Below are positions 31,165 to 60,092 of a stretch of DNA of 64,000 nt, piece after piece. The notes beneath the pieces were generated by a model. That model worked only from the letters and a program-made list of their open reading frames with translations, had not been told where the DNA came from and did not search any database. The translations under genes and the position numbers were made by a program. How positions within the stretch are numbered: the first letter of the stretch is position 1; each line of letters starts with the position of its first letter. Origin of the DNA: Gelria sp. Kuro-4 (GTDB lineage Bacteria > Bacillota > DTU030 > DUMP01); NCBI RefSeq assembly GCF_019668485.1, contig NZ_AP024619.1, positions 256,501 through 320,500 of the forward strand. The letters are read 5' to 3'.

Positions 31165-31167
31165 GTA

Positions 31168-31249
31168 TCCCTTTAAAGGCGGTCCTGTGAGGCCGGGAAG
31201 GGTAGAGAGCCTACTTACTCCCTGGTCGCAGGCGGCCGGGGAGTTTTTT
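31168..31249 (+). promoter_or_regulatory. PyrR-type transcription attenuator before pyrF
   Basis: GGTCCTGTGAGGCC (31181-31194) matches the PyrR RNA consensus ARUCCNGNGAGGYU except at the two outermost positions, which still pair. It sits in a hairpin closed by CCCTT/AAGGG. A terminator follows: ACTCCCTGG/CCGGGGAGT with six T (31217-31249). UMP-bound PyrR would favour termination. No pyrR gene is in the window. Confidence 0.75.
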
Positions 31250-31326
31250 CGTGCCGCCGAGGAAGCAGGTTATATTGTACGGGAACAGCCCTTCGCGCCA
31301 GCTTGTCAAGCCGAGGAGGTACTACG

Positions 31327-37653: not shown

Positions 37654-38421
37654 TTATTGCGCTTCAGGTTGTGGTTTTTGCAGAATTGATAAAAACGCTG
37701 CTAAGTTGATACCTGACCCCGGGTGGGCGAGGGCGCCCCAGCGCGGGTGGGCGGCGATGGCCGCAGGCGTACCCTCGGCCTGCACTGCGCCACCGGCCAG
37801 CACCGCCACGCGGGTGGCCAGCGCGCTCACCTCGCGGAAGTCGTGGGTCACAAGGACTGCTGTGGTGCCCGTGCTGCCGAGTACGTTCTTGAACTCCTGG
37901 ATGAGTCCGGCGCGCGCAATGACGTCCACCGAAGCAAAGGGCTCATCGAGCAGCAGTACCTCCGGTTCCAGAGCGAAGGCCCTGGCCAGGCTCACCCGCT
38001 GGGCTTCGCCGCCCGAAAGGGTGAGGGCCGGCTGGTCGGCCAGGTGGAGCACGCCGAAGCGCTCCAGCCAGACCCGGGCCTTGGCCTCCGCCTCCCGGCG
38101 CCGGCCGCGCAGCTTAAGCCCCACCGCCGCGTTCTCGAGCACCGTGGTATCGAGGAGCAGCGGTTCCTGAAACACCACCGCGAGCCGGCGGCGCACGGCA
38201 AGGGCGTTGGCGCGCGTGACGCGCTGGCCGTGGAAGAACACGGCCCCGCTTTTCGGCAGGTCCAGGCAGGCCAGGGCGGTAAGCAGTGTGCTCTTGCCCG
38301 CGCCGTTGGGGCCGATGACGGCGAGCACTTCGCCCGGCTCCACCGTAAGGTGGGCGACGCTTAAGATGCGCCGCCCGCCTTTTCTTATCACCATGTCGCG
38401 CGCTTCCAGCACCGCCGTCAC
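37654..38421 (-). CDS. tupC: Tungstate ABC transporter ATPase TupC
   Basis: 255 residues from GTG 38421, which overlaps the tupB stop (GTGA); the frame is open upstream only because it shadows tupB. Walker A GPNGAGKSTLL, signature LSGGEAQRVSLARAFALEPE, Walker B LLLDEPFASVD, H-loop LVTHD. Powers tungstate uptake with TupAB. The last ~20 residues (GSGINLAAFLSILQKPQPEAQ region) are read from the 18-bp repeat and sequence beyond it, so the native end seems replaced; the ATPase core is complete and probably works. Confidence 0.9.
   Translation of the reverse strand: MTAVLEARDMVIRKGGRRILSVAHLTVEPGEVLAVIGPNGAGKSTLLTALACLDLPKSGAVFFHGQRVTRANALAVRRRLAVVFQEPLLLDTTVLENAAVGLKLRGRRREAEAKARVWLERFGVLHLADQPALTLSGGEAQRVSLARAFALEPEVLLLDEPFASVDVIARAGLIQEFKNVLGSTGTTAVLVTHDFREVSALATRVAVLAGGAVQAEGTPAAIAAHPRWGALAHPGSGINLAAFLSILQKPQPEAQ
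37703..37720. repeat. 18-bp direct repeat, copy 2
   Basis: AAGTTGATACCTGACCCC, identical to 36447-36464. This copy lies inside the 3' end of tupC and, on the minus strand, encodes part of its odd C-terminus (SGINL). Confidence 0.8.
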
Positions 38422-39116
38422 AAGCGCCGCCTCCTCTGCTGCACGATGGTGAGGACATACGTGATGCTGTAGGCGAGAAGCATGAGAACAAACCCCAAAG
38501 CCAAGGCCATGTCGAAGTTCCCTTTGCTCACCTCGAGCACGATGGCCGTGGTGAGGACGCGCGTGTACCAGCGCACGTTGCCGCCCACCGCCATGGACGC
38601 CCCCACCTCGGAGATGACGCTTCCCAGGCCGGCCATCACCGCCGCCAGGATCCCGAAGCGCACCTCGCGGATGATGAGCCACCAGAACTGAAGCGGTGAG
38701 GCGCCCAGGGCCAAAACCTGAAGGCGCAGTTTCGGGTTGAGCTGTTGCACCGCAGCCATGGTGAGGCCGGTCACCACCGGCGCCGCGATCACCGCCTGGG
38801 CGATAACGATGGCCGTGGGGGTGTACATGAGGTTAAGCATGCCCAACGGCCCGTTGCGCCAGAGGAGGATGCTCACCCAGAGCCCCACCACCGTGGGCGG
38901 CAGGCCCATCCCGGTATTCACAGCGCCTACCAGAAGCTCCCGGCCCCGAAAGCGCGCCACCGCCAGGTACAGCCCCAAAGGCACGCCCAAACCCAGGCTG
39001 ATCAGGGTGGCCAGGCCCGACACCCGCAGGGTGAGGAAGGTAATCTGCAGCACCTCCGGGTCGCCGCTTACGAGCAGGCGGAAGGCCTTGGCCAGACCTT
39101 GCACCACTAAATCCAT
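38418..39116 (-). CDS. tupB: Tungstate ABC transporter permease TupB
   Basis: 232 residues, five or six membrane segments. Opens with LVSGDPEVLQITFLTLRVSG, and has NTGMGLPPTVVGLWVSILLW and the coupling-helix region ALGASPLQFWWLIIREVRFG, as in TupB/WtpB-like permeases. Forms the channel fed by TupA and driven by TupC, with which it overlaps by 4 bases. Confidence 0.92.
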   Translation of the reverse strand: MDLVVQGLAKAFRLLVSGDPEVLQITFLTLRVSGLATLISLGLGVPLGLYLAVARFRGRELLVGAVNTGMGLPPTVVGLWVSILLWRNGPLGMLNLMYTPTAIVIAQAVIAAPVVTGLTMAAVQQLNPKLRLQVLALGASPLQFWWLIIREVRFGILAAVMAGLGSVISEVGASMAVGGNVRWYTRVLTTAIVLEVSKGNFDMALALGFVLMLLAYSITYVLTIVQQRRRRL

Positions 39117-39170: not shown

Positions 39171-40070
39171 CTAATAGGTGTCCGGCTTCCCGGCATCCGG
39201 GAAGAAGAGGGACTGGCCGAACTTGTCTTTGCCGAAGTCGCCAATCACCTTTTGCGTTTCAGCGTCCACCATAAAGTCGGCAAAGGCCTTGCCGCCGGCG
39301 GCGTTCACCTTGGGGAACTTATCGGGGTTGACCTGCATCACGTGGTACACGTTAAGGAGCGACTTGTCTCCCTCGAGCAGGATGGTGAGGGCCAGGTTCT
39401 TCTTGAGCGCCAGGTAGGTGGCACGGTCGGTCAGGGTGTAGCCGCCCTTTTCCGAGGCGATGTTCAGCGTCTGGCCCATGCCGGTACCGGACTCCTGGTA
39501 CCAGGAACCCTTGGGTTCGATTTGGGCTGCTTTCCAGAGCTCGAGCTCCTTCTTGTTGGTCCCGGAGTCGTCGCCGCGCGAGACGAAGAGGGCCTTGGCC
39601 TGGGCGATCTTCTTGAAGGCATCCGCCGTGGTGGCCGAACCCTTGATCTTGGCGGGGTCCTTTTCCGGCCCGACGATGATGAAGTCGTTGTGCATGACCA
39701 GCCGGCGGTCAATGGCCGCCCCGCTTTCCACTACCTTCTTCTCCGCTGCCGGGGCGTGCACCAGGAGCACGTCCGCCTCGCCCCGCTCGCCCATGGCCAG
39801 GGCCTGGCCGGTGCCGACCGCCACCGTCTTTACCCGGTAGCCCGTCTTCTGCTCAAAAATGGGGATGAGGACATCCAAGAGGCCGCTGTCCTGGGTGCTG
39901 GTGGTGGTGGCGAGGATGACCTCTTTACTGCCCGCCGGGGCACCGGCCGGCTGCGCCGGCTCCTTACCGGCTTCCTGATCGGCCTGCTGCTCCGGCCGGG
40001 CCTTCGGCGCGCAGCCGAAGAGGGCCAGGGCAAGCAGAACACAGAGGGCCACGACAAGATACTTTTTCAC
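39171..40070 (-). CDS. tupA: Tungstate-binding lipoprotein TupA
   Basis: 299 residues from GTG 40070 (AAAGGAG nine bases before). Lipobox ALFGC, then a Gln/Ala/Pro linker and the hallmark ATTTSTQDSGLLDVLIP, where the TTTS residues bind the oxyanion in TupA proteins; RGDDSGTNKKELELW and GSWYQESGTGMG follow. TupA proteins bind tungstate with very high affinity over molybdate. Supplies W to the two AORs in the window. A structured leader (40157-40251) precedes the gene. Confidence 0.94.
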   Translation of the reverse strand: MKKYLVVALCVLLALALFGCAPKARPEQQADQEAGKEPAQPAGAPAGSKEVILATTTSTQDSGLLDVLIPIFEQKTGYRVKTVAVGTGQALAMGERGEADVLLVHAPAAEKKVVESGAAIDRRLVMHNDFIIVGPEKDPAKIKGSATTADAFKKIAQAKALFVSRGDDSGTNKKELELWKAAQIEPKGSWYQESGTGMGQTLNIASEKGGYTLTDRATYLALKKNLALTILLEGDKSLLNVYHVMQVNPDKFPKVNAAGGKAFADFMVDAETQKVIGDFGKDKFGQSLFFPDAGKPDTY

Positions 40071-40381
40071 CTGCGGTCTCTCCTTTGCGGCAGTTTACCC
40101 CCTCCGTGCACCTCCTTTTGCCGCCCGGTACCGGCCCGGGGGGCGGCCGGCCCTGCACCTTCTTTCCAAATGCGGGAGGCCAGGCTGTTTCCGGCCTAAC
40201 CCTAACGCCCCGCCGCCGTAGCTCCCGCCTTAGGCGCACGGGGTCGAAGATGCTGACCGCCGGGAACTGCTTGGGAGCCGGAAAGAGCGGCTTCCCGCCT
40301 ACCGGACAATACACGAATTACGCCGGTCGGCGGACAACCCCTCTAAGGCGGATGAGCGTTCCTACGGTCAACGTGCAGACT
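40071..40381 (-). other. 310-base leader region between mog fusion and tupA
   Basis: No gene seen. Contains riboswitch candidate A, a GC-rich stem GCCGCCC/GGGCGGC between the aptamer and the gene, and an AGGAGGTGCAC sequence about 55 bases before the start. Upstream of the aptamer I see no clear promoter, so the leader may be transcribed from the moa operon as well. Confidence 0.5.
40157..40251 (-). ncRNA. Moco/Tuco-type riboswitch candidate A (tupA leader)
   Basis: Minus strand. Shares with leader B (46298-46387) the blocks GCCTAAGGC/GCTAAGGC, CGTTAGGGT, GGAAACMG and GCCTCCC-N-CAT-TGGAAAG, in the same order and spacing. The ends pair as AUCUUC/GAAGGU, while leader B uses GCUCC/GGAGC: compensatory change supporting a common P1 helix. 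Similar elements precede Mo/W cofactor genes (Moco RNA motif). No U-run terminator is seen after it, so control may be at translation. Confidence 0.7.
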
Positions 40382-41365
40382 CTACTCGGCTTCGCCTTGG
40401 AACGAATGGACGGCTTTGAACTGCCGGTCGGCCGCAGGCCGCCCGCACTCGGCGGCGCGGCCGGTGAGGACGGCCAGGCCGTGCGGCAGGGCCGGCAGGA
40501 TGACGCTGAGGTTTTCCTCCACACCGCGGGGGCTGCCGGGGAGGTTCACGATCAGCGTACGCCCGCGGATGCCGGCTACGGCGCGGGAAAGGAGGGCGTG
40601 CGGCGTTTTGGCGAAGCCCGCCGCGCGCATGGCCTCGGGGAGGCCAGGCACCAGCTGGTCGACCACGTCCAGGGTGGCCTCCGGGGTAACGTCGCGAGGT
40701 CCGAGCCCCGTGCCGCCGGTGGTAAGGATAAGGTCGATGGCCCGCTCGTCGGCCAAGCGCTTAAGCTCGGCCGCGAGCTCTTCGCGCTCGTCGGGCAGAA
40801 CCTTGTACTCCACCACCTCGCCCAGCTCTGCCACCAGCCGGCGAATCACCTGGGCGCCGGTATCTTCGCGTTCCCCGCGCGCCCCCTTGTCGCTGGCGGT
40901 GACGATGGCCAGGCGGTAACCTTCTTCGATCAGGATGGGATCACCGTTTCTAACCCGGCCCCCTAAGAGCACGCGGGCGAAGATCCCTTCGCGGGGCATG
41001 ATGCAGTCGCCCACCTGCTGGTAGATGGCGCAGCCGTGGTGGCACTTTTTCCCGATCTGGGTGACCTCCAGCAGCACGTCCGCGCCTACCTTCAGGCGGG
41101 TGCCGACGGGCAGGTGGGCAACGTCAATTCCTTCGGTGGTAAGGTTCTCCCCAAAGTCGCCGGGAACCAGCTTAATCCCCTTGGCGATCATCTTATCGAC
41201 ACTCTCTTGAGCCAAGAGGCTCACCTGCCGGTGCCACGGACCGGCATGGGCGTCGCCCTCGACACCGTAACCGGGTCTAAAGACCCCTTCTCCCCGGTCC
41301 TCTTTGCGGGTTCCCTTGGCGGTGCTGGTACAGACCGCCTTTACGCGGCCGGCTACCCTTCCCAT
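40382..41365 (-). CDS. MOSC domain fused to MogA/MoaB molybdopterin adenylyltransferase
   Basis: 327 residues. N-terminal MOSC domain (1-150) with [29 protein letters not shown] and the conserved Cys in [13 protein letters not shown]-terminal MoaB/MogA domain (151-300) with [19 protein letters not shown] and [18 protein letters not shown]. The Mog part adenylylates molybdopterin before metal insertion; MOSC domains bind sulfurated or pterin-bound metal cofactors. Overlaps moaC by 13 bases. The tail of about 30 residues is not conserved-looking. Confidence 0.9.
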
Positions 41366-41847
41366 GGTTCCTCACCCTCCCGCCGGTAAATACCGCTCTT
41401 GCCGCCGGACTTGGCCACCAGGCGGATGTGCTCGATGCTCATACCTTTGTCCACGGCCTTGCACATGTCGTAAACGGTCAGGGCAGCCACGCTCACCGCT
41501 GTAAGCGCTTCCATCTCGGCACCGGTCCGGCCGGCCAGCGTCACCTCTGCCTCAATCTCCACGCAGCTCGCCCCTTTATCCAGTCTGAGCCGCACCTCTA
41601 CCCCGCCCAGGTTGAGCGGGTGGCACAAGGGGATAAGGTGCGGCGTTTCTTTCGCCGCCATAATGCCGGCCAGGCGCGCCGCCGCCAGCACATCGCCCTT
41701 GGGGACGCCGCCTGCAGCGATCAGCGCCAGCGTGGCCGGGGCCATCTTAACCGCCCCCCGCGCCACCGCACGGCGCTGGGTGACCGGCTTTTGCCCCACG
41801 TTCACCATGTGGGCTTCGCCGGCCGGCGTAAGATGCGTAAGTTCCAT
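41353..41847 (-). CDS. moaC: Cyclic pyranopterin monophosphate synthase
   Basis: 164 residues. Contains [36 protein letters not shown] and [20 protein letters not shown], with the conserved His, Lys and Asp of MoaC. Performs the second half of precursor Z formation after MoaA, whose gene ends 3 bases upstream. Confidence 0.96.
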
Positions 41848-41850
41848 GCT

Positions 41851-42822
41851 CTAGCCCCCTATCTGGCACATCACGCGGGTGTGCTCGGTATAGCTCGCCA
41901 GGTCGTGGTGGGTCGGCTTCAGCTCCAGCGCCCGCCGGAAAGCACCCTTCAGTTCCCCGGTGCCGGCACCGCCCCGCAGCAGCCCCCGCACGTCCACCTC
42001 CACGTCGGACGCCAGGCAGGGCTTGAGCCGGCCATCGGCCGTAAGGCGCAGGCGGTTGCAGCGCGCGCAAAAGGCTTCCGAAAGGGCGGCGATGAAACCC
42101 ACCGTCCCCGGTGCCCCCGGGAAGCGCCAGGCTGCCGCCGGGCCCGCCCCGGCCACGTCGGCCGGCTCCAAGAGCCCTGCCTTTTCCACGGCCGACCGGA
42201 CGGCCGCCATGGGCAGGGCATGGGCCGCCGCCCAGTCGAGGTCCGCCCCCAGCGGCATCACCTCAATAAAGCGCACGTGCAGGGGAAGCCGGCGCGTAAG
42301 GGCCGCGAGCTCACCGATCTCATCGTCATTCACCCCGGCCAAGGCCACCGTGTTGATCTTCACCGGGTCAAGGCCCACCGCCAGGGCAGCCTCGATCCCC
42401 GCCCAGGCATCGGCCAGGGTGCCCCGGCGGGTGATGGCCCGAAAGCGCTCCGGCCGCAGCGTGTCTAAGCTGACATTTACCCGTTTCAGCCCGGCCTGCT
42501 TGAGCGGCGCCGCCAGCGGGGCCAGCAACGTGCCGTTGGTCGTTAAGGAAAGGTCCTCAAGGCCAGGGATGGCGGCGAGCTGGGCCACCAGCTTGGTAAG
42601 CCCCAGGCGCGCCAGCGGCTCCCCGCCGGTCAGGCGTACCCGCCGGATACCCAGGCTCACCCCTACCTCCACCAGGCGCACGATCTCTTCGTAGTGCAGA
42701 ATCTCGTCGTGGGCCTTGGGCCGTACCCCTTGCGGCGGCAGGCAGTACAGGCAGCGCAGGTTGCAGCGGTCCGTCACCGAAACCCGCAGGTAATCAATCT
42801 CCCGTCCCAGCCGGTCGCGCAT
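41851..42822 (-). CDS. moaA: GTP 3',8-cyclase, radical SAM
   Basis: 323 residues. Radical SAM motif VTDRCNLRCLYCLPP, SAM-binding LTGGEPLARLGL, and a second cluster region FCARCNRLRLTADGRLKPCL. Starts the molybdopterin pathway from GTP. The last residue is Gly-Gly, as needed for activity of MoaA C-termini. Starts inside the 3' end of the moeA-PBP gene (29-base overlap). Confidence 0.96.
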   Translation of the reverse strand: MRDRLGREIDYLRVSVTDRCNLRCLYCLPPQGVRPKAHDEILHYEEIVRLVEVGVSLGIRRVRLTGGEPLARLGLTKLVAQLAAIPGLEDLSLTTNGTLLAPLAAPLKQAGLKRVNVSLDTLRPERFRAITRRGTLADAWAGIEAALAVGLDPVKINTVALAGVNDDEIGELAALTRRLPLHVRFIEVMPLGADLDWAAAHALPMAAVRSAVEKAGLLEPADVAGAGPAAAWRFPGAPGTVGFIAALSEAFCARCNRLRLTADGRLKPCLASDVEVDVRGLLRGGAGTGELKGAFRRALELKPTHHDLASYTEHTRVMCQIGG

Positions 42823-44743
42823 CCTCCTCCCCCCTTCGTGGCCACTGGATCTTGCCGGTATCCCTGAGGTCGTAGCCCCCCAGGGCTGTAACCTGTTCTT
42901 TGAATTCGGGACTCTGGATGATGCTCAGGACGGCCCTGACCCCGGGGTGATCCAGGTAAACAGCAGGGATGGCCAGGTCGTAGCGTTCCGCCCGCCAGGG
43001 AATGAAGTCCAGCTCCAGGGCGCGCGCCGCCGACAGGACACCTAAGCCCACGTCCGCCGCCCCGCTCTTTACGGCTGCCGCCACTGCGGTGTGGGTGTAC
43101 TCCTCGCGCTGGTAGCCCTGGATCTTCTGCGGGTCGATGCCTTCCTCCTTCAAGGCCCGGTCGAGGAGCACCCGCGTGCCGGCACCTTTCTGCCGGTTGA
43201 TGAAGGTAACATCCGGACGGGTAAGGTCGGCCAGCGTCCGGATTTCTTTCGGATTCCCCGGCGGCACCAGCAAGCCTTGCTCGCGGTAAACGAGGGTGAT
43301 AAGGTACACCTCTTCCTCAGGAAGATACCGTTTGAGGTAGGGGATGTTGTACTCGCCGGTTTCCTCATCCAGGAGGTGCGTTCCCGCCAGGTGGGCCTCA
43401 CCGCGGCGCAGGGCGAGAAGTCCCCCCAGGCTCCCCACATGGGCGGAGGAGAGCGTAAATTCCGGGTATTTCTCCCGCAGCAGGTTGGCGATGATGTCGA
43501 GCGTGAGGTCGTGGCTGCCGACGGCCACCACCGTGCCCCGGATTTCCATCTCGCTCTTGAGCAAGCTGACCTCCACCTGCGCCCCCGCCTTGATCCCCTC
43601 GCTGCCGCGCGGCACCTTCAGGATCCCGTCGGCCCGCACGAGGGAGGTGGTGAGGGCGGCGCCGCGCGGGAGCGGCGTGGCCATAAGGTGGGGGCCGACG
43701 GGGCCGAGCTTGACGCGCACGAACTCGTCCACGCCCAGGGGCGAAGTGAGGCTGCGGGCCAGACGGGCCGTAACCTTGGGCGGCTCTTCCGGCGGGAGGC
43801 CCAGGAGGCGGGTGAGAAGCGGCTTGAGGTACAGCTCGAGCGCCAGCACGGCCGAAGCCGGGTAACCCGGTACGCCGATCGTTGGTTTGCCCTGGACGCT
43901 GCCTAGAATAACCGGTTTCCCCGGCCGGGTGGCCGCACCGTGCACGAACAGCCGCCCCAGCTCGCCGATGACGCGGGCGCTGAAATCCTCCGAACCGGCA
44001 GAAGAGCCGGCGTTGATGAGAATGACATCCGCCGCGCCGGCTGCCTGGGCCACCCGCGCTTTAATCAGCTCGTAATCGTCCGGGGTGATGGGAAAGACCA
44101 CCGGTTCCGCTCCCCACTCCTTCACCTGGGCCGCGAAGATGGTGGAGTTGAACTCGATGATCTCGCCCGGCGCCGGCTCCTTCCCCGGCGGCACCAGCTC
44201 GGTGCCCGTGGGCAGGATCGCCACGCGCGGGCGGCGGCGGACGGCGATTGCCGTGGCACCTCCGGCCAGGAGGGCCCCCAAGTCCACGGGGCGCAGACGG
44301 TGATTGGCCGGGAGGATAAGCTCCGTCTGGACCATGTCTTCGCCCAAGAGGCGTACATTCTCCCAAGGGCTCACCGCCTGGATGATCTCCAGTTCGCCAC
44401 CCGGCAGCTCGTGCAGGTCCTCCACCATGATCACCGCGTTGGTGCCGGGAGGCAGCGGATCCCCCGTATCCACCCAGAAGGCGTCCTCCCCCACTGTGAG
44501 CCGCACCGGGCTGGTCTCGCTCGCCCCGAAGGTGACCTTGGCCGCCACCGCCACGCCGTCCATGGCCGCAGCGTGGTAGTGGGGCGAGGAGAGGCGGGCG
44601 AAGACGGGGGCGGCCGTGACGCGCCCGGCACACTCCGGCACGGGCAGGGTCTCGGGCGGCATCACCCGGCCGGCGAAGGGCGTAAGGAAGGCCTGCCGCG
44701 CTTCTTCGTACGGGATGTCCTCAAGGTACACCTGTCGCTCCAT
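42794..44743 (-). CDS. MoeA molybdopterin molybdenumtransferase fused to a periplasmic-binding-like domain
   Basis: 649 residues from ATG 44743 (AGGAGCG five bases before). Residues 1-405 are MoeA: AAMDGVAVAAKVTFGA, IMVEDL, INAGSSAGSEDFSARVIGEL and the GVPGYPASAVLALELYL motif. From about 420 a PBP-like domain of the LysR/ModA-related kind (SHDLTLDIIANLLREKYPEF; TFINRQKGAGTRVLLDRAL; SGAADVGLGVL). Known MoeA-PBP fusions are thought to insert the metal and sense or present the oxyanion. Works with the separate moeA upstream; one may be for W and the other for Mo. Confidence 0.92.
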   Translation of the reverse strand: MERQVYLEDIPYEEARQAFLTPFAGRVMPPETLPVPECAGRVTAAPVFARLSSPHYHAAAMDGVAVAAKVTFGASETSPVRLTVGEDAFWVDTGDPLPPGTNAVIMVEDLHELPGGELEIIQAVSPWENVRLLGEDMVQTELILPANHRLRPVDLGALLAGGATAIAVRRRPRVAILPTGTELVPPGKEPAPGEIIEFNSTIFAAQVKEWGAEPVVFPITPDDYELIKARVAQAAGAADVILINAGSSAGSEDFSARVIGELGRLFVHGAATRPGKPVILGSVQGKPTIGVPGYPASAVLALELYLKPLLTRLLGLPPEEPPKVTARLARSLTSPLGVDEFVRVKLGPVGPHLMATPLPRGAALTTSLVRADGILKVPRGSEGIKAGAQVEVSLLKSEMEIRGTVVAVGSHDLTLDIIANLLREKYPEFTLSSAHVGSLGGLLALRRGEAHLAGTHLLDEETGEYNIPYLKRYLPEEEVYLITLVYREQGLLVPPGNPKEIRTLADLTRPDVTFINRQKGAGTRVLLDRALKEEGIDPQKIQGYQREEYTHTAVAAAVKSGAADVGLGVLSAARALELDFIPWRAERYDLAIPAVYLDHPGVRAVLSIIQSPEFKEQVTALGGYDLRDTGKIQWPRRGEEDARPAGTGD

Positions 44744-44783
44744 GCTATCGCTCCTAACTTTTCCTGCGTAGCCGAACAAGGGC

Positions 44784-46016
44784 TCAGAGCAGGTACACTT
44801 CAACTTCCTCCCCGGCCCGCAGGCCTTCGCGGGCAGGCGGGATCACGATGGTGCCATCGGCCCGCACCAGGGTGGTGATGAGGCCCGACTTGCCCAGAAC
44901 GGGCTCGGCCGTGAGGCCTTCCGCCGTCTCCACCAGGCGCACGCGCACGTGGTCCTCGCGCCCGGCGGCGGAGGCCAGGTTGCGCGCCAGGCGGGCCCGC
45001 ACGCCGGCCTGTGGCCGTGTCTTCAGCCTGAGGAGCCGCGCGATGGCCGGCCGCACGAAGAGATCAAACGTCACCAGAGCGGAGACCGGGTGGCCGGGGA
45101 GGCCGAAAACGGGTTTCCCCTGGCAGAGGGCGATGAGCACCGGTTTCCCTGGGCGCAGCGCCACACCGTGCACCAGCACCCCCGGCGGCCCCAGCTCGGC
45201 CAGCACCCGGGCCGCCACATCGCGCACCCCCACCGAGCTCCCGCCCGAGAGCACCACCAGGTCGGCCCCTTCCAGCCCGCGCCGCACGCCGGCCAGCACC
45301 GCCTGGTACTCGTCCCGCGCCAGCCCCAGGTAAACCGGCTCGCCCCCGGCAGCTGCCACCGCAGCGCCCAGAGAGTAACTGTTGCTGTCGCGGATCTGAC
45401 CGGGCGCCGGCGTAACCTCGGGAGGTACAATCTCGTCGCCGGTGGAAAGCACCGCTACGCGCGGCCGCCGCCCCACCGGCACCGTCGTAATGCCAAGGGC
45501 CGCCAGCGCCCCGACATCGGCCGGGCGCAGGCGAGCACCCGCCGGCAGGAGCTCTTCCCCGGCCGCCGCGTCTTCCCCGGCCCGGATCACGTTCTCGCCC
45601 GGCGCCACCGGGCGCAGAACGGCAAACGAGGTCGCATCCAGCTCCTCCGTGTACTCCACCATCACCACCGCGTCCGCCCCGGGCGGGAGCATCCCCCCCG
45701 TGGCGATACGGCTTGCCTGCCCCGGTGCCAGTGCCTTTTGCGGCACGGCCCCCATGCGGATGTCCTCGAGCAGGTCGAGGAGCGCCGGCAGGCCCTCGCT
45801 GGCTCCAAACGTATCCGCCGCCCGCACGGCATACCCGTCCACCGTGGAGCGGGTGTAGGGCGGCACGTCCTCCGCGGCGCGGACGGGCTCGGCCAGCACC
45901 CGGCCCACCGCCGCCGTCAGCGGCACCCGCTTCACCTCGAGCGGCTGCGGCTGCCAGCGGGAAAAAAGCTCCTCCCGCGCCGCCGCCACCGGCCGCACGT
46001 GAAAAAAGTCGTCCAA
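44784..46016 (-). CDS. moeA: Molybdopterin molybdenumtransferase MoeA
   Basis: 410 residues from TTG 46016. Motifs: STVDGYAVRAADTFGASEG, ATGGMLPPGADAVVMVEYTE, SGGSSVGVRDVAARVLAELG and GLPGHPVSALVTFDLFVRPA, with the C-terminal MoeA domain IV after 330. Full standard length without fusion. Second MoeA paralogue of the operon; overlaps no gene but is followed after 40 bases by the MoeA-PBP start. Confidence 0.95.
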   Translation of the reverse strand: MDDFFHVRPVAAAREELFSRWQPQPLEVKRVPLTAAVGRVLAEPVRAAEDVPPYTRSTVDGYAVRAADTFGASEGLPALLDLLEDIRMGAVPQKALAPGQASRIATGGMLPPGADAVVMVEYTEELDATSFAVLRPVAPGENVIRAGEDAAAGEELLPAGARLRPADVGALAALGITTVPVGRRPRVAVLSTGDEIVPPEVTPAPGQIRDSNSYSLGAAVAAAGGEPVYLGLARDEYQAVLAGVRRGLEGADLVVLSGGSSVGVRDVAARVLAELGPPGVLVHGVALRPGKPVLIALCQGKPVFGLPGHPVSALVTFDLFVRPAIARLLRLKTRPQAGVRARLARNLASAAGREDHVRVRLVETAEGLTAEPVLGKSGLITTLVRADGTIVIPPAREGLRAGEEVEVYLL

Positions 46017-46029
46017 CCCGGCGCCCCCC

Positions 46030-46239
46030 TCAGAAGCAGCCCAAGCGGCAGGCGGTGATCTTAAGTCCCAGTTCGTCGGCCGCGGCGCCCACCCGCCGCG
46101 GCTCGACCCCCAGCCGCTCGGCGAGAGCGGTGGCCTGGGCGCAGCTCACCTTACCGTCCTTGGCCAGCTTAAGCAGTTCTTCTTTCAGCACCGCCGTACT
46201 CTTCTCTTGCGGTTTGAGTTTGCCCAATTCTTCCGCCAT
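46030..46239 (-). CDS. Small protein with C-terminal Cys motif, first gene of the molybdopterin operon
   Basis: 69 residues from ATG 46239 (GGGGGTG eight bases before); ATG 46254 has no site. Mostly helical, with ALKEELLKLAKDGKVSCAQA resembling a small DNA- or protein-binding helical domain (ALAERLGVEPRRVGAAADEL looks like a helix-turn-helix) and ending KITACRLGCF. Directly downstream of riboswitch candidate B, 13 bases before moeA. The Cys residues may bind a metal or the cofactor. I do not know a function. Confidence 0.7.
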   Translation of the reverse strand: MAEELGKLKPQEKSTAVLKEELLKLAKDGKVSCAQATALAERLGVEPRRVGAAADELGLKITACRLGCF

Positions 46240-46264: not shown

Positions 46265-46292
46265 CAGAAAGGGAGCCCTCATGGTGGCTCCC
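46265..46292 (-). terminator. Terminator stem of the riboswitch expression platform
   Basis: Minus strand GGGAGCC/GGCTCCC with an eight-base loop and TTTCT after it, directly following riboswitch candidate B and before the small gene. Implies premature termination control. Confidence 0.65.
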
Positions 46293-46297
46293 CGTGC

Positions 46298-46387
46298 GCT
46301 CCTTTCCATGAGGGAGGCGGGCCGGTTTCCCAACCCACCCTAACGGTCCCGGGCCTTAGCTTCACCGTAGGCCTTGGGACTCGGAGC
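46298..46387 (-). ncRNA. Moco/Tuco-type riboswitch candidate B (molybdopterin operon leader)
   Basis: Minus strand. P1 GCUCC/GGAGC; inside are the blocks GCUAAGGC, CGUUAGGGUGGG, GGAAACCGG and GCCUCCCUCAUGGAAAGGAG shared with leader A near tupA. The Moco RNA motif is the known class at this position (in front of Moco genes). Followed immediately by a terminator stem, so it probably switches the operon off when cofactor is plentiful. Confidence 0.75.
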
Positions 46388-46558
46388 TTATCGAATTTAC
46401 ATCTTAGGTCTATAATTCTTCGCCGGTGGAGCAAATCCTTCTTCCTTTTCCTCTGTTTCTGTCGCGGGTCGGCGCGAGTAATGTATACTTGCCTCAAGGC
46501 GGACGCATCAAGGTCCAAGACATCGTAACGGAAAAAGTAGTGATTGGGGGTAACAAGC

Positions 46559-49821: not shown

Positions 49822-49850
49822 AAGGCGCTGCCATGTGCAGCGCCTTATTT
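49822..49850 (+). terminator. Intrinsic terminator after the second activator
   Basis: AAGGCGCTGC/GCAGCGCCTT stem, loop CATGT, followed by ATTT. Lies between activator gene and AOR promoter. Confidence 0.7.
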
Positions 49851-49877
49851 CGTCACCCTTCCCCATACAAAGTGCTT

Positions 49878-49894
49878 TGGCATGTATCTTGCAA
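49878..49894 (+). promoter_or_regulatory. Sigma-54 (-24/-12) promoter of the AOR-TRAP operon
   Basis: TGGCATG-TATC-TTGCAA, matching TGGCACG-N4-TTGCW with one change. About 50 bases before the AOR start. Confidence 0.88.
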
Positions 49895-49942
49895 TTCTCA
49901 ATGCTGAACCAAGATTCCAGGGTGAAGGAGTGTCAGCATGAG

Positions 49943-51814
49943 ATGAAAGGTAACACCGGAAAGATTCTCTTTGCCGACCTAAGCAAGTGCTCCCTTACTG
50001 AGGAACATCTGCCCGAGGACGTATACGCCAGTTTCTTGGGAGGCTATGGCCTGGGTGTTAAGTTCATTTACGACCATATGAAGCCAGGGGTCGACCCACT
50101 AGGTCCCGGGAACATACTTGGTTTTACAACCGGTGTGTTGGTAGGAACACCAGCCATGTCCGGCAACAGGTTCACTGCATGTGCCAAGTCCCCCCTCACT
50201 GGAACCTGGGGTGACAGCAACTGTGGGGGGTATTTTGGACCGGCCCTTCGGCGGGCCGGCTTCGATGCAGTGTTTGTAACCGGCGTTGCACCGTCACCGG
50301 TTTATCTGTTCCTTGATAACGGACGGGCCGAGATTTGTCCAGCAGGAGACCTCTGGGGTAAAGACACCACGGAAACTGAAGAGGTGCTCAAAGAAAGGCT
50401 GGGCAGCGACATTCAAATCGCGTGCGTAGGACCGGCCGGTGAGAACCTGTCCCTCATCTCTGGAATTATACATGATCGCGGTCGGGCAGCCGGACGCTCT
50501 GGTCTCGGCGCTGTAATGGGATCTAAGAAGCTGAAGGCCATCGTAGCGCGCGGAAATCAAGAAATACCCATGGCTGATCCGGAAGCAGCTAAGAAACTGA
50601 GGAGTAAATGGGTAAAGGATTTGTTGGCACGCCCCAGCGCTCAAAAGTTTCGGAAATACGGGACCGTTGATCACGTAGCGAGCTCAACATTTAGTAACGA
50701 TGCCCCAGTGCGAAACTGGGCTGGCGTAGGTTTACGTGACTTTCCTCAAGCTACAGCTATTAGTGATGACCATGTTCTGCAGTATGAAAAAAAGAAGTAT
50801 GCCTGCTGGCAGTGTCCATTAGTCTGCGGAGGCATCTATGAGGTACCGGCCGGGCCATACGCTGTCGCCGAGGCACACAAGCCGGAATACGAAACATGTG
50901 CTATGTTCGGCAGCAATCTGCTTAACGACAACTTGGAAGCAATAATCATGCTTAACGATATTTGCAACCGCATGGGACTCGACACGATCTCCACCGCTGC
51001 AACGGTAGCTTTCGCCACCGAGTGTTTCGAAAAAGGCCTTATCGATGAAAAAACAGCCGGTGGGCTGAAACTGTCCTGGGGCGATCACGCGGCGGTGGTA
51101 GAAGCAGTTAAGCAAATCGGGAGACGTGAAGGTCCCTTGGGCCAACTTCTGGCGGATGGTAGTCGCGTTGCAGCGCAGCGAATTGGCGGAGAAGCCCTCC
51201 AGTATGCAATACAAATCCAGGGGCAAGAGCTGGCGGCTCACGATCCACGCTATGGCCCAAGTTGGGGCACCTATTATAAAGTCGACGCAACACCTGGACG
51301 TCATACGCAAATCGGTCTGGTAATTTACGAAAACGGTGGTGGCATCCCTGGTTTGGACCTTGGCAAGATTACAAAGTACCAATTTACTGGCAAAGGCCAA
51401 GCCGCGGCAAAAGTGCAAAACATAATGCACGCTCTTTACTCGGCCGGCCTGTGCATGCAGGTGATTCTGCGTTCTGACATCAGTTGCTGGCCGGAATTCC
51501 TTTCTGCCGTTACCGGCGAGGACTATGATCTGGCAAGGCTCGAAGAGACGGGCGCACGCATAGCGGCTCTTAGGCAGGCCTTCAACATTCGCGAGGGCCT
51601 ACCCGTGACAGAATTCCAGTTGCCAGGTCGTTCGTACGGTAATCCACCCTTGGATGCCGGACCACTCGAAGGCATCGTCATTGACGTTGCCTCTATGACC
51701 CGCGAGTACTACGAGGCACAGAAGTGGGATCCAGCATCAGGGAAACCTCTTCGCCAAAGGCTTCAGGAACTCGGCTTAGGTTACGTCATATCTGATATTT
51801 ACTCCAACTCCTAG
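49943..51814 (+). CDS. Tungsten-dependent aldehyde:ferredoxin oxidoreductase (AOR)
   Basis: 623 residues from ATG 49943 (GAAGGAG 13 bases before; the nearer ATG at 49938 is out of frame). AOR family: GNTGKILFADLSKCSL start, SGNRFTACAKSPLTGTWGDS, GAVMGSKKLKAIVARG, the 4Fe-4S ligands C288-x2-C291-x3-C295 and C504. Binds a tungsto-bispterin and oxidises aldehydes to acids with ferredoxin, or the reverse at low potential. First gene of a sigma-54 operon with a MoaD-like protein, a hydroxyacid dehydrogenase and TRAP genes. Less GC-rich than the second AOR at 58239. Confidence 0.93.
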   Translation: MKGNTGKILFADLSKCSLTEEHLPEDVYASFLGGYGLGVKFIYDHMKPGVDPLGPGNILGFTTGVLVGTPAMSGNRFTACAKSPLTGTWGDSNCGGYFGPALRRAGFDAVFVTGVAPSPVYLFLDNGRAEICPAGDLWGKDTTETEEVLKERLGSDIQIACVGPAGENLSLISGIIHDRGRAAGRSGLGAVMGSKKLKAIVARGNQEIPMADPEAAKKLRSKWVKDLLARPSAQKFRKYGTVDHVASSTFSNDAPVRNWAGVGLRDFPQATAISDDHVLQYEKKKYACWQCPLVCGGIYEVPAGPYAVAEAHKPEYETCAMFGSNLLNDNLEAIIMLNDICNRMGLDTISTAATVAFATECFEKGLIDEKTAGGLKLSWGDHAAVVEAVKQIGRREGPLGQLLADGSRVAAQRIGGEALQYAIQIQGQELAAHDPRYGPSWGTYYKVDATPGRHTQIGLVIYENGGGIPGLDLGKITKYQFTGKGQAAAKVQNIMHALYSAGLCMQVILRSDISCWPEFLSAVTGEDYDLARLEETGARIAALRQAFNIREGLPVTEFQLPGRSYGNPPLDAGPLEGIVIDVASMTREYYEAQKWDPASGKPLRQRLQELGLGYVISDIYSNS

Positions 51815-58238: not shown

Positions 58239-60092
58239 ATGGGCAACGGGTACTGGGGCAAGGTCTTACGCGTAAACCTGACCGACCGCACCTTTCGGGA
58301 AGAACCAGTGGGTGAGGACGTTTGGCGCAGGCTCCTGGGTGGGGCTGGCTACGGGGCCAAGGTGCTGCTCGAGGAGACACCGGCCAAGGTGGACCCGCTG
58401 GGACCGGAGAACAAGATCATCTTCGGCATCGGCTGCCTGCAGAGCGTCCCGGCGCCGGGGAGCGCCAAGTGGAGCGTGGTCACCAAGTCACCCTTAACCC
58501 GCACGTACCTGGATTCCGCCGGGGCGGGCACCTGGGCGCCCATCTTCAAGCGCACCGGGTACGACTCGCTCGTCATCGAAGGCAAGGCCAGCGAACCGCT
58601 CTACCTCTACATTACCGACGGCAGGGTGGAGTTCCGCCCCGCCGGGCACCTCTGGGGCAAGACAACCGGCGAAACCACCGGCACCTTAAAGGATGAACTA
58701 GGCAAGAACGCCAGCGTGCTCAGTATCGGTCCGGCCGGTGAGCGCCTGGTTCCCATCGCCTGCATCGCCTCCGACGGCATCAGCTTCGCCGGTCGCGGCG
58801 GTGCCGGCGCCGTAATGGGCTCGAAGAACCTCAAGGCCATCGCCGCCTATGGGACCCAGGAGTGCCCCGTGGCCGACCGCGAAACGGCCTACCGGCTCAG
58901 CCGGGAAATGATGAGGGAACTGGCCGAGCGCGGCGCCGGCTTCAGCGAGAACGGTACACCCGCCGTTATCGTACCGTTTGAGGAGATGGGCGACACCCCC
59001 ATCAAATACTGGACGGGGGACGTGTGGCACGAGGGCGCGCGCCTGCTGGGGACGCCGCACTATAACGAGGTCCTAAACACGAAACCGCTGCACTGTCTGC
59101 ACTGCCCGGTGGGCTGCCACCGCCGCGTGCGGGTGGACGGTCCGCCGGAGTTCGCCATGGAGGGTAACGGCCCGGAGTACGAGACCATCGCCATGTTGGG
59201 CTCCAACCTCCTCATCGACGACTTGGCCCCCGTCACCAAGGCCAACGAGCTCTGCAACATGCTGGGGATCGACACCATCTCGGCCGGCGCCTGGATCGGT
59301 TTCCTGATGGAGTGCTACGAGAAGGGGCTCCTCACCGACGCCGAGCTGGGCGGCCCGGTGCGCTGGGGCGACGGCCACCGGATGGTGGAGCTCGTCGAGC
59401 AGATCGCCCGGGGTGAAGGCGTGAGCCGCTTCTTTAAGGAAGGCATTGTGGGCGCAGCGAAAATGGTCGGGAAAGGCGCCGAAGAGCTCATCGTCCACGT
59501 GAAGAACCTGGACTTCCCCGCCCACGACCCGCGCGCCGTTTTCGGCCTGGGCGTGAACTACGCCACCTGCCCCATCGGCGCCTCCCACGAGCGCGGCGAC
59601 CCGCAGGCCACCGCCCTGGGCCTCTGCTACCCCGAGCTCGGCTGGGATGAACCGCCGGAGCGCTTCGACATCGACCGCGCCGCCGAGGTGGCTTACGTCA
59701 TCACCAATGCCAGCCTGATGTACAACTCCCTGACGTTCTGTAAGTTTATCGTCAAAGGCGCCGGGATGACCCTTACCGAGCTCACCGACATCTTTAACGC
59801 CGTGACGGGCTGGAACTGGACCCCGGCCGAGCTGGCCGACGTAGGTAAACGGGTCATTACGGTGCAGCGTCTCGTCAACGTGCGCGACGGCATCGGCCGC
59901 AAGGACGATGTGCTCCCGCCTAAGATGTACATCACGGCCAAGGAAGGCGGCCGCGTGGGCAAGACCCCGGCCACAGAGCACGAGCGCGTCCTCTCCGAGT
60001 ACTATGCCCGGCGCGGCTGGGACGAAAACGGCGTGCCCACGCGCGAAACGGTGGAGAAACTGGCGTTGGGCGAGCTCCTTAAGTACGTGTAG
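58239..60092 (+). CDS. Tungsten-dependent aldehyde:ferredoxin oxidoreductase (AOR), second copy
   Basis: 617 residues from ATG 58239 (AAGGAGGAG before it). GNGYWGKVLRVNLTDRTFRE start; SAKWSVVTKSPLTRTYLDSA; GAVMGSKNLKAIAAYG; cluster ligands C286-x2-C289-x3-C293 and C501. The short-chain AOR family is likely, but some members reduce carboxylates or act on aromatic or other aldehydes. Very GC-rich, unlike the copy at 49943. The gene is preceded by its own sigma-54 promoter and a broken activator, and followed by a MoaD-like gene. Confidence 0.94.
   Translation: MGNGYWGKVLRVNLTDRTFREEPVGEDVWRRLLGGAGYGAKVLLEETPAKVDPLGPENKIIFGIGCLQSVPAPGSAKWSVVTKSPLTRTYLDSAGAGTWAPIFKRTGYDSLVIEGKASEPLYLYITDGRVEFRPAGHLWGKTTGETTGTLKDELGKNASVLSIGPAGERLVPIACIASDGISFAGRGGAGAVMGSKNLKAIAAYGTQECPVADRETAYRLSREMMRELAERGAGFSENGTPAVIVPFEEMGDTPIKYWTGDVWHEGARLLGTPHYNEVLNTKPLHCLHCPVGCHRRVRVDGPPEFAMEGNGPEYETIAMLGSNLLIDDLAPVTKANELCNMLGIDTISAGAWIGFLMECYEKGLLTDAELGGPVRWGDGHRMVELVEQIARGEGVSRFFKEGIVGAAKMVGKGAEELIVHVKNLDFPAHDPRAVFGLGVNYATCPIGASHERGDPQATALGLCYPELGWDEPPERFDIDRAAEVAYVITNASLMYNSLTFCKFIVKGAGMTLTELTDIFNAVTGWNWTPAELADVGKRVITVQRLVNVRDGIGRKDDVLPPKMYITAKEGGRVGKTPATEHERVLSEYYARRGWDENGVPTRETVEKLALGELLKYV

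Follow-up and report, generated by a model that had tools for sequence, protein, structure and literature searches.

A Tuco-type riboswitch candidate in front of tupA in Gelria sp. Kuro-4, and a variant of the same RNA family in front of an AOR operon

The Moco motif was defined on the molybdenum cofactor (Moco), and reporter assays in the original description showed the E. coli moaA Moco RNA to act as an OFF switch (PMC2408646). The same paper proposes that the P3-lacking type is a sensor of the tungsten cofactor (Tuco), with tupA and tupB as markers of Tuco organisms (Regulski 2008, PMC2408646). There, the discrimination between tungsten and molybdenum draws on correlation together with the lack of response of the E. 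coli P3-type RNA to tungstate, and four Moco RNAs with a GCAA tetraloop and without the receptor are also mentioned. According to PMC10845959, it has yet to be established exactly which metabolite the Moco riboswitch recognises. Moco/Tuco riboswitches frequently accompany molybdate or tungstate transporter genes (reviewed in PMC9971707), and since this link between motif and transporter is already in print, a Tuco-type RNA on tupABC represents a known kind of control. The locus described here is a clear added case, in which an RNA that apparently senses a cofactor precedes tungstate-import genes, and the host genome has one TupA-family gene, ten AOR-family (AFOR_C) genes and no match to ModA, with copies of one RNA over both tungsten supply and cofactor synthesis. 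The larger value, in our opinion, lies in the AOR-linked variant to which the tupA finding leads.

The window analysed, i.e., the whole stretch of DNA under study, spans 64,000 nucleotides (Table 1). When it was searched against all of Rfam on both strands with cmscan, the tupA leader matched RF01055 (the Moco motif) over the whole model at 64.9 bits, compared to a gathering score of 36 bits (E=2.4e-13). The initial annotation, made from sequence alone, had placed a structured, Moco-like leader at 40157-40251, and this was borne out: P1 (AUCUUC...GAAGGU), which closes the core of a leader RNA of 118 nt, begins at 40251 and ends at 40157. In this copy, P4 carries a GAAA tetraloop (GGAAAC loop) and P2 the receptor bulge (CCUA...UACGG). 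Compared with the P3-containing type (RF01055, e.g., E. coli moaA, as presented in PMC2408646), the window copies are alike in P1, P2 with its receptor bulge, the P4 GAAA tetraloop, P5 and the conserved core, and both types precede cofactor synthesis and metal transport genes. In contrast to that type, the window copies lack P3 (both align with gaps at each of the five P3 pairs), the transporter is TupABC (tungstate) rather than ModABC, and the tupA platform differs from that of E. coli moaA, where the ribosome-binding site is embedded in P1. The window aptamer is not essentially different from the P3-lacking Tuco/Wco type (PMC2408646; tandem cases in PMC9481103), with which it shares the absence of P3, a host with tupA and AOR genes, and the position before MPT-synthesis and tungstate-transport genes. 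The only new detail relative to the latter type is the tupA hairpin/AGGAGGUG/GGGG platform, together with CUUCGAC...GAAAGAAG, a sequence signature common to the tupA copies of the host's class. "Tuco" is a better label than "Moco" here because both copies lack P3 and the host genome looks tungsten-based. Matches to RF01333 and to snoRNA families within the window were sub-threshold and were set aside as chance.

Table 1. Coordinates of the features discussed. Plain numbers are positions in the window; other coordinates carry a contig or locus handle.
Feature	Position	Strand	Basis
P3-lacking Moco/Tuco riboswitch aptamer, before tupA	40143..40260	-	RF01055 64.9 bits; own model R2 94.9 bits; P3 columns are gaps
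Platform hairpin CCGGCC-GCCCCCCG-GGCCGG	40131..40150	-	Sequence
AGGAGGUG element	40109..40116	-	Kept in nine tupA leaders, 36-42 nt upstream of start codon
GGGGGUAA element, partner of loop C-run	40095..40102	-	GGGG(U/C)AA conserved in nine leaders
tupA Shine-Dalgarno AAAGGAGAG	40078..40086	-	7 nt upstream of GTG 40070; 6-7 nt in nine relatives
tupA-like tungstate-binding lipoprotein gene	39171..40070	-	NF041772 TupA 1.2e-72; PF12849; GTG start 40070
tupB-like permease gene	38418..39116	-	NF038017 7e-77; NF041773 TupB 7.5e-51
tupC-like ABC ATPase ORF	37654..38682	-	PF00005; best NCBIfam PhnT2, WtpC families, all below cut-off
Second P3-lacking Moco/Tuco aptamer, before moe/moa operon	46283..46398	-	RF01055 65.1 bits
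Antiterminator 5' half CCCUCAUGG (P5 and its loop)	46306..46314	-	Pairs with 46276-46284
Antiterminator 3' half CCAUGAGGG (within terminator)	46276..46284	-	
Intrinsic terminator GGGGAGCC-ACCAUGAG-GGCUCCCU then UUCUGAUUAU	46270..46293	-	
69-aa ORF, first moe operon gene	46030..46239	-	Ends CRLGCF; no Pfam match
moeA-type gene 1	44784..46016	-	PF03453, PF00994, PF03454
moeA-type gene 2, C-terminal PBP-like domain	42794..44803	-	NF011068 4.9e-235; PF12727
moaA	41851..42822	-	TIGR02666, 358 bits
moaC	41353..41847	-	TIGR00581, 204 bits
MOSC-MogA/MoaB fusion gene	40382..41365	-	PF03473, PF00994
AOR-family genes	49835-51814 and ~58902-60068	+	First adjoins sigma-54 activator
Third canonical copy, P3-lacking	G000:C1:2779781-2779897		Operon L051 982-6872
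Fourth family RNA, variant	G000:C1:209341-209448 (= L133 1501-1608)	-	R1 101.9 bits, E=4e-27
Tandem loci near tupA	L186 5477-5756, L202 3591-3896, L208 3306-3596, L218 2637-2915, L220 2618-2906, L231 2626-2921		

A similar leader had been noted before the molybdopterin operon of the same window, and it proved to be a second family member of nearly the same RF01055 score; the genes that follow the two copies, tupA at 40070 and the moe/moa operon at 46239, fit the placement of RF01055. Read on the Rfam consensus, the 34 pairs present in both copies comprise 19 that are identical, 10 that changed on both sides yet still pair (e.g., the first pair of P2, G-C in the moe copy and C-G in the tupA copy), two that changed on one side and three that are broken in one copy, at an overall aptamer identity of 61%. 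The compensatory change in the outer stem, to which the initial annotation had attached weight, is indeed there (P1 CUCC:GGAG in the moe copy vs. CUUC:GAAG in the tupA copy). At the family level, a covariance model (CM) built from 26 copies was used to align 72 copies, 69 of them distinct, and among the latter 93.5% of cells were paired, 23 of the 29 pairs showed double-sided changes, and double-change cells numbered 416 vs. 121 expected from shuffles, a level of covariation reached by 0/500 shuffles and by no slide. This alignment is model-fitted and hence leans towards structure, so these values support, rather than prove, the fold; the covariation extends to P1, P2, P4 and P5.

The genes downstream agree with the tungstate transporter named at the outset, i.e., a TupA-like gene, then TupB-like and ABC-ATPase-like genes, with the TupA and TupB assignments both scoring under equivalog cut-offs (for the TupA-like protein, which contains ATTTS, the best NCBIfam match is NF041772 with 244 bits under a 400-bit cut-off). 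The ATPase domain of the tupC-like ORF begins at about residue 90, and the true start probably lies within the ORF. The leader structure recurs in front of other tupA genes and, together with the RF01055 match, this supports reading the tupA leader as a Moco/Tuco riboswitch. Specifically, among 61 genomes searched (the host and 60 relatives), 33 had a full-length TupA and 18 of these carried the motif at the tupA operon (9/10 in the same class and 9/23 elsewhere in the phylum), one of them, the S. wolfei-like G027, before tupB-tupC-tupA. A scan of GTDB contigs with one TupA query gave 80 tupA loci, and model R2 placed the motif at most 300 nt upstream in 22 of them and at 0.5-1.1 kb in five more, tandem pairs included (27/80). 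Of the 18 tupA-linked copies, 16 lack P3 and two (G030 and G060) possess it, as judged by inspecting the sequences, automatic detection of P3 by the P2 end being imprecise for about one third of the rows; that is, the rule that absence of P3 denotes Tuco is not strict.

Tandem family riboswitches near tupA were seen in Desulforamulus, Desulfovirgula-like, Desulfotomaculum, Pelotomaculum and other genomes (Table 1). One locus (L063 283-2450, on G045:C4) holds three family RNAs in 2.2 kb around tup genes, in the order canonical before tupA, variant of the ON type described below with an 18-bp terminator, and canonical before tupB. Moco-family RNAs were also seen before FecCD-type transporter genes (L009, L074, L084, L089, L124 and L130), several of these loci with LysM-Peripla_BP_2 or DUF364 proteins, and these loci may constitute a further tungstate/molybdate uptake route.

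In the moe copy, CCCUCAUGG can pair with the terminator (CCAUGAGGG or CCAUGGGGG) in a helix of 9-13 bp, a pairing found in 7/7 family members carrying the moe copy, and the terminator and antiterminator folds have the same predicted energy (-69.5 kcal/mol). A terminator combined with an antiterminator that excludes the aptamer is the arrangement of a transcription-terminating OFF switch, and the moe copy is probably one, because ligand that holds P5 would free the terminator. Relatives of the 69-aa ORF at the head of this operon also head 12 riboswitch-led moe/moa operons (before moeA), and we note its product as a small, conserved protein in the synthesis of the tungsten/molybdenum cofactor. 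At the other end of the operon, the MOSC-MogA gene stops 122 nt before the tupA riboswitch, and hence transcripts of tupABC may arise by read-through of the moe operon as well as from a start of their own; a search of the tupA leader for a sigma-70 promoter found none.

The tupA copy appears to be wired in another way, since no intrinsic terminator was found between aptamer and tupA. In nine leaders the same elements follow one another, namely a hairpin whose loop contains a C-run, AGGAGGUG, GGGG(U/C)AA and AAAGGAGAG 6-7 nt from the start, and the platform common to these nine relatives has no U-tract. The loop C-run of the window hairpin is able to pair with the G-run at 40102-40098; in eight relatives the corresponding hairpin has a loop that contains CCCC and a differing stem sequence, and CCCC:GGGG pairing is predicted in most tupA leaders. 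Further, AGGAGGUG can take the place of the P1 3' strand as partner of the P1 5' strand, with 8 bp in the window (GCAUCUUC:GGAGGUGC) and 6-8 bp in 9/9 leaders, which are related and for each of which the chance expectation is about 0.30. The predicted energy of the window leader is -84.7 kcal/mol when folded freely vs. -82.7 kcal/mol with P1 enforced, i.e., about 2 apart; RNAalifold on the platform alone gave a weak -4.8, the alignment being unreliable there. Two other roles were considered and rejected. Sequestration of the Shine-Dalgarno sequence was one, as partition functions computed in the presence and absence of the aptamer showed no consistent change at this sequence across the nine leaders. 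The other was AGGAGGUG as the Shine-Dalgarno sequence of a leader peptide or of a longer TupA: seven leaders have no start codon at usable spacing, the other two have only a GTG 1-3 nt away, and in-frame stops precede tupA in 6/9. We infer from these features that the tupA copy would act through a platform that competes for P1 and represses translation.

Taken together, we consider it likely that the tupA leader is a P3-lacking Tuco/Wco riboswitch that places TupABC tungstate import under feedback from the finished cofactor. What sequence comparison shows is the aptamer fold, the conservation of that fold before tupA and, over the cofactor-synthesis genes, a sister copy whose terminator/antiterminator is conserved. 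The ligand would be the tungsten cofactor, and its binding would stabilise P1, P4 and P5. At the moe copy, binding would free CCAUGAGGG from the antiterminator, the terminator would form and cofactor synthesis would stop, while at the tupA copy binding would hold the P1 5' strand inside the aptamer and release AGGAGGUG, which would in turn shift the fold of the downstream hairpin and G-run such that tupA translation falls. The net effect would be less tungstate uptake and less cofactor synthesis when tungsten cofactor is ample. Since the tupA leader RNA is a genuine family member, the cell probably throttles tungsten uptake by cofactor level.

Alternatively, the same aptamer might sense the molybdenum cofactor, metal-free molybdopterin or a dinucleotide form and not specifically the tungsten form, consistent with the definition of the family on Moco in E. 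coli (PMC2408646), with a direct ligand identity that is still open (PMC10845959) and with the two tupA-linked copies that have P3. However, P3 is absent from both window copies and the genome combines the lack of ModA with ten AOR-family genes, and we regard molybdenum sensing as unlikely. It is similarly improbable, in our view, that control by the tupA copy is transcriptional rather than translational, whether by way of Rho or of a terminator that escaped recognition: the other window copy, before moe/moa, does use a terminator, and in 87/91 canonical copies with a detected terminator it lies downstream of P1, but the interval from aptamer to tupA is free of intrinsic terminators and the nine relatives that share the hairpin, AGGAGGUG, GGGG and the Shine-Dalgarno sequence all do so without a U-tract.

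We give considerably less credence to the idea that the tupA copy is of the ON type or has decayed into a relic that no longer switches. An ON-type variant elsewhere in the genome, and a switching direction that for the tupA platform is deduced, would leave room for this scenario, but the core is kept in nine relatives, with CCUCCC and GGAAAGA invariant, and uptake genes are normally under repression by their own end product. Finally, the possibility that the leader resembles the Moco motif by chance, as a stem-loop or a protein-binding site, can practically be dismissed, for although G+C-rich DNA readily folds, the covariance match (E=2.4e-13 over two strands and all families) refutes it, and the compensatory changes also speak against it.

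A fourth family RNA of the genome lies outside the window and was not reported in the Rfam search even at E 0.5. Its deviant core was first seen in six weak RF01055 matches in relatives, and the model that recovered it (R1) is a CM built from those six matches. The operon that follows encodes NuoE, NuoF, an unassigned gene product, an Fe-S protein and AOR; no family RNA was detectable before the two AOR genes of the window. Across 22 variant loci, nearly all have CCUGCC or CCUGCU...GCAAAGG, P2 is short and the P4 loop is mostly GCAA, GUAA or GCGA, and among ten first or second genes scanned at variant loci, nine encode proteins of AOR, Fe-S or NuoEF type. The variant falls mostly near or below the Rfam threshold (some loci pass, most of those weakly). 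With the GCAA-tetraloop RNAs mentioned previously (PMC2408646), the fourth copy shares the short P2 and the GNAA loop of P4, and it probably belongs to that group. It differs from the window copies in having UGC...GCA for UCC...GGA in P5 and in recruiting the 3' strand of P1 into its terminator, i.e., the wiring is reversed.

That is, the 5' arm of the terminator is the P1 3' strand in 18/18 variants with a scored terminator vs. 4/91 canonical copies (Fisher 4e-17, relatedness ignored). For the fourth copy, this overlap was read by eye, outside the script scoring, and the terminator fold is predicted to be more stable than the P1 fold by about 13 kcal/mol. A terminator that consumes the P1 3' strand predicts activation by the ligand; thus the competition of P1 and terminator for one strand implies that the variant would be an ON switch for tungsten enzymes. 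We lean, with some reserve, towards a two-sided regulon in which canonical Tuco RNAs would turn OFF uptake and synthesis and the variant (CCUGCC...UUGCAAAGG core, receptor-less short P2, GNAA loop of P4) would turn ON AOR operons in response to the same cofactor. No report of an ON-type Moco/Tuco RNA or of AOR-linked variants was found in the open-access literature, including the main text of the 2008 paper. If the AOR-linked variant is an ON switch for the same ligand, these would be, as far as we found, the first known Moco/Tuco RNAs wired both ways in one cell, and they would offer a testable system for asking which ligand is bound by such RNAs and how tungsten is distinguished from molybdenum.

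The third canonical copy follows the same terminator/antiterminator logic as the moe copy (UGCGGAAAG:CUUUCCGCA). Its operon encodes an Oxidored_molyb-domain lipoprotein, a metallophosphatase-Oxidored_molyb fusion and a YkoE-like ECF component fused to Oxidored_molyb, followed by a double (EcfAA'-like) ATPase and a CbiQ-type subunit. These three are the only Oxidored_molyb domains in the genome, and the first three genes recur in genome G001; we speculate that the operon may serve the import of a pterin-type cofactor or of a precursor. Elsewhere in the window, an attenuator resembling a PyrR-binding site (31166-31252, forward strand; 47.5 bits, short of the 54 bits set for gathering) precedes the ORF at 31303.
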